Assembly: GCA_937922045.1 (NCBI GenBank) | Contig: CAKZXA010000091.1 | Coordinates: 1 to 44,442 of the forward strand | Source: an uncultured Acidimicrobiales bacterium | Lineage (GTDB): Bacteria > Actinomycetota > Acidimicrobiia > Acidimicrobiales > SZUA-35 | Reading direction: 5' to 3' | Length of the DNA: 44,442 bases | Part shown: one piece after another, positions 18,772-40,168 of the stretch | How the letters are laid out: every line of letters begins with the position of its first letter | Numbering within the stretch: the stretch's first letter is position 1 | Notes under the pieces: generated by a model | What the model was told of the DNA's origin: nothing | Seen by the model: only the letters and a program-made list of their open reading frames with translations | Databases searched by the model: none | Made by a program: the position numbers and the translations under genes

Positions 18772-18804
18772 AGCACAAGGTCGTTGGCCAGAGATCTCTG
18801 GGTA
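18772..18804 (-). pseudogene. Remnant of the EamA-family transporter gene beyond the insertion
   Basis: If the 1,587-bp element and one copy of its 5-bp target repeat are removed, the minus-strand frame of the interrupted transporter continues here as RTVP-RDLWPTTL, which fits a loop-to-helix transition of such proteins. It then runs straight into the antisense of the nuoN1 end. Only about eight native codons remain, so the rest of the gene was lost separately, with a breakpoint immediately beside the nuoN1 stop. Small size limits certainty. Confidence 0.5.
18800..18804. repeat. Target-site duplication, left copy (GGGTA)
   Basis: GGGTA directly abuts the left terminal repeat and is matched by GGGTA at 20392-20396 directly outside the right repeat. 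Together they define the insertion point. Confidence 0.8.
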
Positions 18805-18847
18805 GGCCCCGAACTCCCGAAGCTACGCCGAGCCGCAGAGTAGATCC
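18805..18847 (+). repeat. Left terminal inverted repeat
   Basis: Begins GGCCCCGAACTCCCGAAGCT at the outer edge. It matches the reverse complement of 20349-20391 at 40 of 43 positions; identity stops abruptly at both ends. Confidence 0.9.
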
Positions 18848-18879
18848 CAGCGAGGTCGATGAGGCTGCGGAAACGCCCG

Positions 18880-19602
18880 TCACCTAGCGGCCTGTAGAAG
18901 TAGGAACACGGGGACACGGAGGCGTCGTTCATATTCGGCCTGATCGCCGGCAAACAATTCTCTCACGGGACGGCATTCCGCCAGGCCGGTGAGCGATAGG
19001 CCAGCACCTGAGAGGAGTGACAGGTACTGTTCTATTGTTCGGTGGTGCCATAGGACAGGTCTTCCGAACCATGATCGGCTGCGAGGTCCTGACGAGAAGT
19101 AGTTGTCGACGACTTGGGTTTGGCGGGGTCCGTCTGGTGCCTGGTTGCCGGAGGTGATTATTGGGTGGATCACGCTGAACACAAAACTGCCGCTTGGTAC
19201 GAGAGCTTGGCTGACGCGTTCAAAGATCGGGTTTAGATCTTCGACGTAGTGGAGTGCCATGCGTGACGTTACAAGGTCGTATGCGGCTGCGTTAGGCACA
19301 TAGACCTCAATGCTGTCTTGGACGAACTCGACAAGAGGCCCGGCCGTCAGATGATTCGCTCGACGAATCATCTCTTGGGAGCTGTCGACTCCGAGATATG
19401 TCGAGCACCCCTGGTTCGAACAGGTGAGACCAAAGGTGCCGTCACCGCAGCCAAGATCAAGGATCCTAAGGCCTTCGAGTTCGCCTATCGCAGCGGCGAA
19501 GGCTGGATCCTCCATCACGAGGTTTGGGCTCCGGATCTTGCTGTGACGATGGTCGAGATAGGCCGCTACTGAAGCTGGGTCGTCGTAGAAGCCAGCGGTC
19601 AT
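18880..19602 (-). CDS. Class I SAM-dependent methyltransferase (transposon cargo)
   Basis: The 240 residues have the Rossmann-type SAM-binding motif LDLGCGDGTFG (about residues 46-56), then YLGVDSS at strand 2 and a VTSRMALHYVEDL region, the pattern of the UbiE/Methyltransf_11 group. The N-terminus AGFYDDPASVAAYLDHRHS also resembles that group. The substrate cannot be told; a small molecule is more likely than DNA because no target-recognition domain is present. Its ATG overlaps the resolvase stop (ATGA), so it is co-translated with the resolvase and moves with the element. A resistance, metabolite-modifying or selfish role is equally open. Confidence 0.88.
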   Translation of the reverse strand: MTAGFYDDPASVAAYLDHRHSKIRSPNLVMEDPAFAAAIGELEGLRILDLGCGDGTFGLTCSNQGCSTYLGVDSSQEMIRRANHLTAGPLVEFVQDSIEVYVPNAAAYDLVTSRMALHYVEDLNPIFERVSQALVPSGSFVFSVIHPIITSGNQAPDGPRQTQVVDNYFSSGPRSRSWFGRPVLWHHRTIEQYLSLLSGAGLSLTGLAECRPVRELFAGDQAEYERRLRVPVFLLLQAAR

Positions 19603-20204
19603 GCCGACCCATCCAGGCTGTTGATAGAACGGAGTCGGGTTCCGATGCTGGTCTTGTCGAGGTAACCGTAGAGTGTTCCTCGTTTGACGCCGAACATTTC
19701 TGCGATCTGTTGCACGGTGTGTTCGCCTTCGTCATAGAGGCGCTGCGCTTGTTTGGCTTGATCGGCGGTCAGTTTGGGCCGTCGGCCACCTTTGCGGCCA
19801 CGAGCTCGAGCTGCCGCCAACCCGTCACGAGTGTTTGCGACGATCAGCTCGCGTTGGAACTCGGCGAGCACGGACAGCATCCCGAACATGGCTCGCCCTT
19901 CGGCGCTACTGGTGTCGATGCCTTGTTCGAGCACCCGTAACCCGACGTCTCGTTCACGAAGGTCGGCTCCGAGATTCACCAGGTGCAGCATCGATCGACC
20001 GAGGCGGTCGAGGCGAGTGACAACCAGAGTGTCACCGGACCGGATCAGTTTCAGAACCAAGTCCAGCTGTGGGCGAGACGCCTTGGCGCCGCTCGCAACG
20101 TCGAGGTAGATGTCGTCGGCCTCAACGCTGGCTCGTTGAAGAGCATCGAGTTGGTGGTCTGGGGTTTGGTCGATGGTGGAGACTCGGGCGTAGCCGATGA
20201 GCAT
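19599..20204 (-). CDS. Serine recombinase of the resolvase/invertase family
   Basis: The 201 residues begin MLIGYARVST, with the catalytic serine at position 9. They contain VTRLDRLGRS (active-site arginines), the helix region EFQRELIVANTRDGLAAARA, and a C-terminal helix-turn-helix (QQIAEMFGVKRGTLYGYL). Length matches Tn3 resolvases and Pin/Hin invertases. Placement beside a terminal repeat, with dyads of res type just upstream, favours a resolvase that separates transposition cointegrates. ATG 20204 is preceded by TAAAGT six bases upstream, suggesting a leaderless mRNA. It is coupled to the methyltransferase gene. Confidence 0.93.
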   Translation of the reverse strand: MLIGYARVSTIDQTPDHQLDALQRASVEADDIYLDVASGAKASRPQLDLVLKLIRSGDTLVVTRLDRLGRSMLHLVNLGADLRERDVGLRVLEQGIDTSSAEGRAMFGMLSVLAEFQRELIVANTRDGLAAARARGRKGGRRPKLTADQAKQAQRLYDEGEHTVQQIAEMFGVKRGTLYGYLDKTSIGTRLRSINSLDGSA

Positions 20205-20348
20205 GTGTCGACTTTACTTCAGAGCCGTTTGCCGAACATTGTTTTTCGACACGGGTTATCGACGCGATATGGACGCTGCGGAGGGACAGCCTGGCGCGTG
20301 TCGGTAAATGGTCGTTTCTCGACACTGGGCGTGGCTGTCAACGATTGA
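20205..20348. promoter_or_regulatory. Candidate res (resolution) site
   Basis: The 144 bp between the resolvase start and the right terminal repeat contain related dyads built on TGTCG/CGACA. The clearest is at 20299-20324 (TGTCGgtAAA, six bases, TTTctCGACA). A second, weaker one is at 20230-20251 (TGcCGAA...TTCGACA), and a TGTCG half-site lies at 20206-20210. Size, spacing and place match multi-subsite res regions that bind resolvase dimers, which would also repress the resolvase promoter. Assignment is inference from pattern. Confidence 0.55.
20211..20216 (-). promoter_or_regulatory. -10 element TAAAGT for the resolvase gene
   Basis: TAAAGT on the minus strand ends six bases before ATG 20204. 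This is the spacing expected if transcription starts at the start codon. No -35 is asserted. Confidence 0.5.
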
Positions 20349-20391
20349 GGATCTACTTTGCGGCTCGGCGCAGCTTCGGGAGTTCAGGGCC
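20349..20391 (-). repeat. Right terminal inverted repeat
   Basis: Read on the minus strand it begins GGCCCTGAACTCCCGAAGCT and mirrors the left repeat with three mismatches in 43 bp. It supplies the last 12 codons and the stop of the truncated EamA frame. Confidence 0.9.
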
Positions 20392-20652
20392 GGGTACGGT
20401 TCGGCGGGCAGCCGGGAGGAGGCCAAGGGCCGCGGCCCCAAGGGCGAGACGACCGAACGCCACCGACGACGGGGTGAGCGAGTCGAGTCCGATCGCGATC
20501 CACAAAAAGGAGGAGCCCCAGATGAGCGAGACCATGATGGTCAGGGCCCAGTCTGTTGCCTCGAAGGCTTCGGTGCTGGCACCGTCGGCGGTGGTGACGA
20601 GCGCCCGACGTTGAACGCTTTCCGGGCCTAGTTTCGGTTTTTGGCTGTCCAC
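20353..20652 (-). pseudogene. 5' fragment of an EamA/DMT-family transporter, truncated by the element
   Basis: About 86 native codons remain, from GTG 20652 to the insertion point at 20392-20396; a further 12 codons are read from the transposon end before a TAG inside it. The residues WALTIMVSLIWGSSFLWIAIG and SSVAFGRLALGAAALGLLP are the first two helices of the drug/metabolite transporter fold, where full proteins have ten helices and about 300 residues. The product cannot be functional. The start overlaps the end of the ACT-domain gene by 25 bp, so the two formed an operon. Confidence 0.85.
20392..20396. repeat. Target-site duplication, right copy (GGGTA)
   Basis: Matches GGGTA at 18800-18804; lies immediately outside the right terminal repeat and within the transporter reading frame. 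Confidence 0.8.
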
Positions 20653-37079: not shown

Positions 37080-38639
37080 ATGCAGAGCTTTCTAGATTCT
37101 TGGGGTATCACCTCCATGGTGTTCGTGCCGCTTTTGGGCGCCTTCATCATGATGCTGATTCCTGAGAAAGAAGAAGAACTTCATAAGACGATCGCCTTCC
37201 TGGCCACCATCGTCTCGGCCGCAATCGGCATCCTGCTGCTGCGCAACTTCGACTACGACCACACCGAGCTCTTCCAGTTCGGCGTCGATCGAAGCTGGAT
37301 CGACGTCATCAACGCTCGGTACACGGTCGGCCTCGACGGAATGTCGTTACCGCTTGTAGCGCTGACCTTGCTGGTTACACCGCTGGTCATCATCTACTCG
37401 TGGAACCACATTCCTGAGCCAGGCAACGCCAAGGCGTTCCTCATGCTCATCCTGGTGCTTCACACCGGCATGCTCGGCACCTTCGTAGCCCGAGACCTGG
37501 TCTTGTTCTTCGTGTTCTTCGAGGTCGTGTTGTTGCCGATGTACTTCATGATCGGCGTGTGGGGCGGCGAACAGCGCCTCTACGCCTCAATCAAGTTCTT
37601 CCTCTACACCCTTTTCGGTTCGGCCCTCATGCTGGTGTCGTTCCTGGCTCTCTACAAGCTGACCGGGGCCGAGACCTTCGACATCGTACGCCTGTCAGAG
37701 CTGGTCGCCGAGAAGGGCATCCCCCTCTCGACGCAGGTCCTCGTCTTCGGCGGCATGTTCATGGGCTTCGGTATCAAGGTGCCGATGTTCCCCTTCCACA
37801 CCTGGCTGCCCGATGCTCATACCCAGGCGCCAACCCAAGGTTCGGTCATCCTGGCCGCTGTCTTGCTGAAGCTAGGTACCTACGGCTTCATCCGCATCGC
37901 CCTCCCGATCCTGCCCGCAGCTGCGGTGGAGTGGGCCCCTTGGATCGGCCTCCTGGCCGTGATCGGCATCATCTACGGAGCGCTCGGCTGTCTGGCGCAG
38001 ACCGATATGAAGCGCCTCATCGCCTTCTCGTCGGTGGCCCATATGGGTTACGTGATGCTCGGTATCGCCACACTCACCGATTTCGGTATCAATGCTGCCA
38101 TCTTCGGTATGGTCGCTCACGGTCTGATCACGGGCATGTTGTTCTTCGTGGCCGGTTCGGTCAAGGAGCGCTACCACACGCTGGAGATCGCCCGACTCGG
38201 TGGTCTCCTGGTCCAGGCCCCGAAGTTGGGCTGGATTCTCGGTATCACAACGATGGCCTCGCTCGGCCTACCTGGCCTCGCCGGGTTCTGGGGCGAGTTT
38301 CCCGTCATCCTTGCTTCCTATGATCCCGCCCCCGGCTTGAGCGACACCCTCTTCCGGGTGTACATGGTGATCGCCGCCATCGGTACCGTGCTGGCTGCTG
38401 GCTATCTGCTGTGGCTGCTCCAGCGCACCGCCTTCGGCACACCTTCCGAAGAGTTCAAGAACGATCCCAACATCCATGACACCGTCTTCACCGAGTGGGT
38501 TGCCTGGGTGCCAATGCTTATTCTTATCGTCGTTCTCGGGTTCGTTCCGAGCCTGATCTTCGACGTGACCGACGGGCCTGTCCAGCTCATCAGTGACATG
38601 TTCGTGAATGGCGTCGATGGTTCGGCGCTAGGGGAGTAG
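37080..38639 (+). CDS. nuoM: NADH-quinone oxidoreductase subunit M (operon 2)
   Basis: The 519 residues show LVLFFVFFEVVLLPMYFMIG (helix-5 Glu), FPFHTWLPDAHTQAPTQGSV, MKRLIAFSSVAHMGYVMLG (lysine helix) and GLPGLAGFWGEFPVI. Length is normal, with no acidic tail as in NuoM1. ATG 37080 has CAAGGA upstream and sits after the 83-bp gap. The stop is 2 bp before the nuoN2 GTG. Confidence 0.96.
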   Translation: MQSFLDSWGITSMVFVPLLGAFIMMLIPEKEEELHKTIAFLATIVSAAIGILLLRNFDYDHTELFQFGVDRSWIDVINARYTVGLDGMSLPLVALTLLVTPLVIIYSWNHIPEPGNAKAFLMLILVLHTGMLGTFVARDLVLFFVFFEVVLLPMYFMIGVWGGEQRLYASIKFFLYTLFGSALMLVSFLALYKLTGAETFDIVRLSELVAEKGIPLSTQVLVFGGMFMGFGIKVPMFPFHTWLPDAHTQAPTQGSVILAAVLLKLGTYGFIRIALPILPAAAVEWAPWIGLLAVIGIIYGALGCLAQTDMKRLIAFSSVAHMGYVMLGIATLTDFGINAAIFGMVAHGLITGMLFFVAGSVKERYHTLEIARLGGLLVQAPKLGWILGITTMASLGLPGLAGFWGEFPVILASYDPAPGLSDTLFRVYMVIAAIGTVLAAGYLLWLLQRTAFGTPSEEFKNDPNIHDTVFTEWVAWVPMLILIVVLGFVPSLIFDVTDGPVQLISDMFVNGVDGSALGE

Positions 38640-38641
38640 AC

Positions 38642-40168
38642 GTGTCGATTCTTGCCTCGCTGGCGCCAGCAATAGCGCAGACCACGGAGTTCGTGCGTCC
38701 CGCCATCGACTGGCATGCCTTCGCGCCTGAACTGGTGCTGTTGGCATGGGGTGCCTTGGTAACCGTCATCGACCTGATCGGTGGCGAGCGAACGCGCCGG
38801 TTCATGCCATCACTGACCGGCATTGGGTTCCTTCTGGCCATGATCCCGGTTCTGACCTTGTGGAGCCAGAACGACGACCTGCCGCGCGTCTTGTTCGACG
38901 GCGCCTACATGGTCGACCATTACTCGCTGGTGCTCAAGGGCATCTTCCTGGTCTCGGCCTACGTGATCGTGCTGTTGTCGAGCAACTACATGGCTGAAGG
39001 CGACTACTACGACGCCGAGTACTATCAGCTCATCGCAGCCTCGGTTCTCGGCATGCTGGTGATGACCTCAGCGAGGGACCTCATCTCGATCTTCATCGCT
39101 CTCGAGCTGATGTCGATCCCGGCCTACCTCATGGCCGCCTGGCGTAAGAGCGACCTCAAATCCAACGAGGCCGGTCTGAAGTACATGCTGATGGGTGTCT
39201 TCGCCTCGGGCATCCTGCTCTACGGCATGTCGCTGCTTTACGGAGCGGCCGCCGATACGCGCCTGGTCGAGATCGCCGATGCCATCGACACCGGCGAGAC
39301 CACACCGATCTTCACCCTCGGGGTGCTTTTCACCATTATCGGTTTCGCCTTCAAGGTCTCGGCTGTGCCTTTCCATACCTGGGCCCCCGATACCTATGAG
39401 GGAGCGCCGACACCACTCACCGCCTTCCTGGCCGTTGCCTCCAAGGCTGGTGGCTTTGTGGCCCTGGTCAGTGTGGTGCTGTTCGCCTTCCCTCACCAGT
39501 GGGAGATTGCCGAGCCGGTGATGTGGATCTTGTCGGCCTTGACGATGACGGTCGGCAACCTGATCGCTCTGCGACAGACGAATATCGTGCGTATGCTCGC
39601 CTACTCGGGTATCGCCCAAGCTGGCTACATGTTGGCGCCGCTCGCCGTCTACTCAAAGGTGCCGGATCTCGCACAGTCGTCGATCGTCACCTATCTGCTG
39701 ATCTATGCGGCCATGAACCTCGGCGCCTTCGCGGTGGTAATCATCGCGGCCCGCAAAACCCGTTCTGGCGACATCGAGAGCTATGGCGGGATGTTCCGCT
39801 ACGCCCCTGGCATCACGGTGGCGATGACGGTCTTCCTCTTCTCGTTGACCGGCATTCCGCCGATGGGTGGCTGGTTCGCCAAGTTCCAGATCTTCAACGC
39901 TCTACTGTCGGCCGAAACCACCGCTGCCACCGTGCTGGCCATTATCGCTGCAGTCAACTCGGTGATCGCTGCCTACTACTACCTGGCGATTGCCAAGCAG
40001 ATGTGGTTCTTGCCCGCCCCCGACGGCGATCACTCACCGATCGTGGTTCCGCCCGCCCTTATGGCGGCGGTTGCCATCACCGTCATCGTGACGATCGCCA
40101 CCGGTTCGGTTGGTGTCGGCCTTGTCGGCGACGCCACAGACTTTGTCGAACTGCTCGCTTCTCCCTGA
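38642..40168 (+). CDS. nuoN: NADH-quinone oxidoreductase subunit N (operon 2)
   Basis: The 508 residues have FIALELMSIPAYLMAAW (helix-5 Glu), FHTWAPDTYEGAPTPLTAFL, VRMLAYSGIAQAGYMLAPL (here VRML follows TNI, with no lysine just before the AYS motif) and GIPPMGGWFAKFQIF. The start is GTG 38642. It is the last gene of operon 2; its stop is only 2 bp from the stop of the convergent surface-protein gene, so any terminator must lie within that gene. Confidence 0.96.
   Translation: MSILASLAPAIAQTTEFVRPAIDWHAFAPELVLLAWGALVTVIDLIGGERTRRFMPSLTGIGFLLAMIPVLTLWSQNDDLPRVLFDGAYMVDHYSLVLKGIFLVSAYVIVLLSSNYMAEGDYYDAEYYQLIAASVLGMLVMTSARDLISIFIALELMSIPAYLMAAWRKSDLKSNEAGLKYMLMGVFASGILLYGMSLLYGAAADTRLVEIADAIDTGETTPIFTLGVLFTIIGFAFKVSAVPFHTWAPDTYEGAPTPLTAFLAVASKAGGFVALVSVVLFAFPHQWEIAEPVMWILSALTMTVGNLIALRQTNIVRMLAYSGIAQAGYMLAPLAVYSKVPDLAQSSIVTYLLIYAAMNLGAFAVVIIAARKTRSGDIESYGGMFRYAPGITVAMTVFLFSLTGIPPMGGWFAKFQIFNALLSAETTAATVLAIIAAVNSVIAAYYYLAIAKQMWFLPAPDGDHSPIVVPPALMAAVAITVIVTIATGSVGVGLVGDATDFVELLASP

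Follow-up and report, generated by a model that had tools for sequence, protein, structure and literature searches.

A transposase-less resolvase and methyltransferase unit in an Acidimicrobiales genome with the ends of actinobacterial Tn3-type elements

Transposons of the Tn3 family move replicatively through a cointegrate, and the first mobile insertion cassettes, found in Bacillus, were IS-derived and are not known to carry a resolvase module. TIME-RES of Pseudomonas ZM1 (1186 bp) is transposase-less and carries tnpR and res between imperfect 40-bp inverted repeats of Tn3-family type; it was caught transposing, at 7.8 x 10^-5 and with a 5-bp duplication (Szuplewska et al. 2014, PMC4133298). 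Its ends are of Tn5044/Tn5563 type, its resolvase has 309 aa, and that account describes no cargo gene. TIME-COMP1, from the same source, is likewise without a transposase and pairs a 187-aa TnpR with one chromosomal-type gene (DUF1652), the whole being bounded by two complete TIMEs (PMC4133298); the term mobile insertion cassette is also used there, and such cassettes resemble the unit presented here in holding cargo between transposon ends without a transposase. Among actinobacterial class II elements, Tn4556 of Streptomyces fradiae has a methyltransferase passenger (345 aa), a possible res site by IR-R and 5-bp duplications, and is autonomous, with a TnpA of 994 aa and a resolvase with the phage-integrase motif PF00589, a tyrosine type (PMC6403206). 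The hallmark ends of the family start with GGGG and close with TAAG, as in Tn6516 and Tn6517 (PMC6305408).

The unit considered here has 1587 bp (18805-20391), is flanked by copies of GGGTA, and lies in a window (the whole stretch of DNA that was analysed) of 44,442 nucleotides from an uncultured Acidimicrobiales bacterium. The host assembly, a draft of 4.88 Mb in 128 contigs and about 97% complete, holds one copy. The unit and the adjoining target sequence are made up as follows.

18772-18799, minus strand: short continuation of the EamA frame past the unit, followed by the nuoN end
18800-18804: left target duplication, GGGTA
18805-18847, plus strand: left inverted repeat (IRL), 43 bp, starting GGCCC
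18880-19602, minus strand: gene for a class I SAM-dependent methyltransferase of 240 aa, the cargo
19599-20204, minus strand: tnpR, serine resolvase of 201 aa (Resolvase and HTH_7 domains)
20206-20272, minus strand: putative res sites II and III, placed by comparison, limits approximate
20299-20324, minus strand: putative res site I, 26-bp palindromic, found in five of seven compared relatives
20349-20391, minus strand: right inverted repeat (IRR), 43 bp
20392-20396: right target duplication, GGGTA
20397-20652, minus strand: N-terminal part of the interrupted EamA-type transporter gene, the target

An earlier note, made from the letters alone, had described a non-autonomous element with 43-bp terminal repeats, a GGGTA duplication and two coupled genes but no transposase, and this anatomy holds. 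The repeats match at 40 of 43 positions (93% complementary, three positions differing), and the window contains their outer 31 bases twice at up to three mismatches, where 100 shuffles give 0.00 on average. Both copies of GGGTA are exact; for 5-mers drawn at random from the window, the probability that two are alike is 0.0016. Only two genes were identified in the unit, both on the minus strand, and an ATGA forms the overlap of tnpR with the methyltransferase start. No TnpA query scored better than E 0.4 against the unit, where no transposase fragment was found, and the tniA, tniB and tniQ genes by which Tn402/Tn5053 elements are recognised are not among the two genes identified. Because a Tn3-type DDE transposase gene is absent, the unit is classed as a non-autonomous derivative and not as a Tn3 transposon.

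Judged by its sequence, the unit appears to fit the TIME-RES pattern of tnpR and res between Tn3-family-like inverted repeats with no transposase. It differs from TIME-RES in its cargo gene, ends and resolvase length, and in being known from the sequence of one insertion. Like TIME-COMP1 it combines TnpR with a chromosomal-type gene, within one pair of inverted repeats rather than two TIMEs; compared with Tn4556, its resolvase is of the serine type. No gene-less TIME with GGCCC ends was identified for a comparison of subterminal sequence. What is new is the combination, in which the cargo is coupled to tnpR: transposase-less tnpR units and methyltransferase passengers were both already known, the latter from Tn4556, which limits the earlier view of such a cargo as unusual.

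The ends conform to the Tn3 family in length (inverted repeats of about 38-40 bp; here 43 bp, of which 39-40 are conserved in relatives) and in the 5-bp target duplication, exact in four of seven relatives as well as here, and a resolvase gene with an apparently multi-part res site lies beside them. They do not start with GGGG or close with TAAG, the form in the unit being GGCCC...GTAGA. The earlier note had taken such atypical ends as a sign of a possible new subgroup; they are atypical, but they are common to several actinobacterial genera and not peculiar to the unit. Since relatives with a Tn3 TnpA also have GGCCC, it is a trait of a lineage and not grounds for exclusion from the Tn3 family, and the kinship with Tn3, put forward in the earlier note as the nearest fit, is now shown: elements that have a Tn3-type TnpA and 5-bp duplications lie between copies of this terminal repeat. 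In the open-licence literature, searches with the repeat core, with Tn3 and GGCCC, and with Tn3 and actinobacterial genera yielded no description of GGCCC ends.

Relatives were sought by scanning the contigs of 84,980 species (genome_contigs) with the outer 19 bases of the repeat only, which gave 42 stretches. In 20 of these, two of which are one contig (L105 and L131), the next 24 bases, which the scan did not use, match IRR at 13-19 positions, where 6 would be expected with equal bases. Nineteen of the 20 are actinobacterial, and the other (L093) is from a Planctomycetota MAG. The 22 stretches under the 13-of-24 line were left out of the count; two of them (L118, L126) still reach 33-35 bits with a repeat model that was trained with them.

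Seven relatives with both ends were assembled from the extended scan loci plus one further plasmid and one further genome: L145 (Saccharomonospora), L146 and L147 (Hoyosella altamirensis), L148 (Hoyosella sp.), L149 (Kribbella, 9.6 kb), L188, and L212 on a Streptomyces plasmid, whose repeat is more diverged, still starts GGCCC and closes CAAGTA. The full-length relatives with a transposase that the earlier note had hoped to find by a repeat search thus exist. L146 and L147 are two insertions of a single 3916-bp element, whose TnpA of 981 aa is intact and aligns with Tn4430 TnpA almost from end to end (E 4e-73). All seven relatives contain Tn3-type TnpA sequence, in aligned blocks 56-100% identical to the Hoyosella TnpA; the gene is frame-broken in L145, L148, L149 and L212, and L188 has a 139-residue match only, so that Hoyosella alone offers a documented intact donor. 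The proposed check on duplications came out in part: they are exact in L146 (TACCT), L147 (TCAAT), L149 (GTCTA) and L212 (GGGTC), but agree at four of five bases in L148 and are lacking in L145 and L188. The Hoyosella, Saccharomonospora, Kribbella and Streptomyces elements (L146/L147, L145, L149, L212) have ends like those of the unit, and L145 and L212 share res and tnpR with it as well; unlike the unit, they carry tnpA and lack this methyltransferase, no homologue of which was found in the seven two-ended relatives at E 1e-5.

Stretches in which a single end was located offer further observations. On a Pseudonocardia plasmid (L179, 8001-13435), a GGCCC end adjoins a resolvase and a mercury-resistance cluster, and a second end was not found in the stretch. 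In a Hoyosella sp. (L156, 8311-9054), an end stands with a resolvase and about 9 kb inside gives no TnpA match, possibly a transposase-less derivative. Single-ended relatives such as L156, L179, L199 and L200 may be further transposase-less units.

The unit is probably a non-autonomous member of this GGCCC-ended actinobacterial Tn3 lineage, mobilised in trans, whose cointegrates are resolved by its own TnpR. Given that the ends and the resolvase are kept and that a methyltransferase stands where the transposase would be, it would move only with the transposase of a related Tn3-type transposon. Following the established mechanism of the family, TnpA of the GGCCC-ended lineage would recognise both ends of about 40 bp in trans and pair them; replicative movement would yield a cointegrate and the 5-bp duplication; and the unit's TnpR would then resolve the cointegrate at res, between tnpR and IRR. 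The methyltransferase occupies the place of tnpA and the other genes of full relatives and would be expressed together with tnpR, presumably from a promoter within res, the ATGA serving translational coupling. The unit lies in an EamA gene, the remainder of which was lost before or after the insertion.

This reading is supported by L145, the relative nearest in layout. The order in L145 is IRL, tnpA, cargo, tnpR, res, IRR, and its right end is collinear with that of the unit (34 of 38 terminal bases, 82% over 28 nt at site I, and 68% over 622 nt including tnpR), with 223 bp from IRR to the tnpR start vs 187 bp in the unit; everything L145 has between IRL and tnpR is replaced in the unit by the methyltransferase. 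In a different history, a full transposon of tnpA, cargo and tnpR might have inserted here and later lost tnpA, leaving a stranded remnant that never moved as it now is. In relatives tnpA does stand between IRL and either the resolvase or the cargo, the unit is single copy, and deletion in its neighbourhood is evident from the loss of most of EamA. Yet no fragment of tnpA is left, nothing is broken in the two repeats, the duplication, res or the two genes, and only about 33 bp separate the methyltransferase stop codon from IRL, all of which makes such a history unlikely beside mobilisation in trans.

The target itself can be followed across the insertion. Once the unit and one GGGTA are removed in silico, the EamA transporter frame reads through the join. 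Of 20 distinct relative loci, 10 give an EamA alignment that spans the join with no gap and 10 give one that ends earlier. Only 4-6 residues align past the join, which makes this a short test, because nuoN begins after 33 bp and the remaining EamA is gone. Most of the gene is missing beside the unit (18772-18804 and 20397-20652 remain, with nuoN directly next), and the host's best match to the missing part is a paralogue 38% identical. This deletion is an event distinct from the insertion, and the unit does not account for it, because 28 bp and the duplication still lie between the two. Within flanks of up to 1.5 kb in 29 family genomes, nothing convincing was found for EamA near nuoN; in a genome of the same genus (G030), there is an EamA gene (37%) some 2 kb beyond nuoN, but its orientation is opposite to that in the host. 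Elsewhere in the window, at 37101-40009, is a second complex I subunit-like gene pair, which compares with nuoN of the first set at 28% (37101-38387) and 36% (38696-40009); the window may hold two nuo-type clusters.

TnpR is assigned by Pfam to Resolvase (2e-42) and HTH_7, and its nearest solved structures are DNA invertases, then the gamma-delta and Tn3 resolvases. The res-like region of the earlier note is borne out when the 144 bp that separate tnpR from IRR are aligned with the sequences upstream of seven related resolvases. The putative site I, TGTCG-N16-CGACA, recurs in five of these loci (L145, L029, L031, and L028 and L032, which are mutually near relatives), 122-123 bp upstream of the start codon vs 120 bp in the unit and thus within 3 bp; half of it is kept in L030 and it is absent in L033. 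TnpR shares 65% identity with the L145 resolvase, 74% with the L212 resolvase and 80% with one from Nocardia farcinica pNF1, and the closest resolvases (78-80%) adjoin TniA/B/Q genes and not Tn3 TnpA. Being close both to L145 and L212 and to resolvases linked to tniA/B/Q, the resolution module has probably been exchanged between transposon types. The resolvase nearest to TnpR, in L028 and L032 (6001-7299), forms the N-terminal portion of a 432-aa recombinase on Nocardia plasmids, which has tniQ, tniB and Mu-type transposase genes as neighbours and the same site I upstream.

The identities of 80% and 78% to resolvases adjoining TniQ, TniB and Mu-type transposase genes would also suit a Tn402/Tn5053-type (TniABQ) unit, the nearest resolvase being one from Nocardia plasmids. 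The unit's ends recur, however, on elements with Tn3 TnpA, a model of the ends finds no such repeat in L028 or L032, and the resolvase module appears common to both transposon types; we therefore regard this assignment as highly improbable. Coincidence or an assembly artefact, for which one might cite the draft state of the host assembly and the EamA sequence missing beside the unit, is still harder to credit, the repeat being unexpected by chance and common to independent named genomes.

Against mobilisation in trans, no second copy of the unit was found in the genomes searched: the repeat at up to three mismatches occurs in one of 395 class genomes, its own, and a search of the phylum with the repeat model, under filters that lose weak matches, returned six of 396, its own included. 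The earlier note had named as the contrary outcome that no other copies exist and that relatives keep the two genes as fixed chromosomal genes without the repeats; a second copy is indeed lacking and relatives of the methyltransferase look chromosomal and free of repeats, but the repeats as such occur widely and in connection with transposons, so that the outcome holds in part only. The one Tn3 TnpA match above the family cut-off in the host is a decayed C-terminal piece (C73:5187-5732, L050), 53% identical to Hoyosella TnpA, where three other Tn3 TnpAs give 28-31%, which suggests that the GGCCC-ended lineage was once present in this genome; an intact TnpA of that lineage was not found in the host assembly. 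Tn3 transposases occur in 11 of 248 genomes of the host's order, and the aligning loci are mostly about 25-33% identical to Hoyosella TnpA, the exceptions being the host remnant and a partial TnpA in G491 (72% over 341 aa); two of the order's Tn3 loci (L051, L057) have GGGG ends.

Several candidate ends were set aside. A repeat-like stretch by the G491 gene agrees at 27 of 40 bases, has no partner and was not counted. Two viral-contig matches of the outer end lie within other genes, are half matches only by score and are attributed to chance, while matches on Pseudosulfitobacter plasmids are not ends, the one looked at lying inside a recombinase gene.

The cargo belongs to Methyltransf_25 (5.8e-16), and its nearest structures are the SAM-dependent methyltransferases 3bkw and 3g5l, of unstated substrate; to judge from the family, its putative substrate would be a small molecule rather than DNA. 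Homologues 48-54% identical occur in 7 of 39 host-family genomes, and across related genomes the identity is 46-57%, the 57% coming from another aligner; the top-ranked match on plasmids has 39%. The available flanks of the homologues contain no copies of the repeat, so the gene looks like a chromosomal one captured by a transposon. A close tnpR is found in 5 of 395 class genomes and a close methyltransferase in 4 of 377 order genomes (own included in each), and within these samples the host alone has both.

A wider picture, which we offer tentatively and would sooner doubt than assert, is that of self-resolving gene cassettes: a hitherto undescribed GGCCC-ended actinobacterial Tn3 subgroup whose TnpA spreads small transposase-less units, each with its own resolution system and with a captured host gene built into its tnpR operon, so that the binding of TnpR to res governs how the cargo is expressed. 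The unit itself illustrates how a chromosomal-type gene could be made mobile by no more than a pair of ends, a resolvase and a res site. The GGCCC-ended lineage would escape searches for the GGGG hallmark, and if such units are common in actinobacteria, ordinary gene movement may have been overlooked there, because the unit has nothing resembling a transposase.
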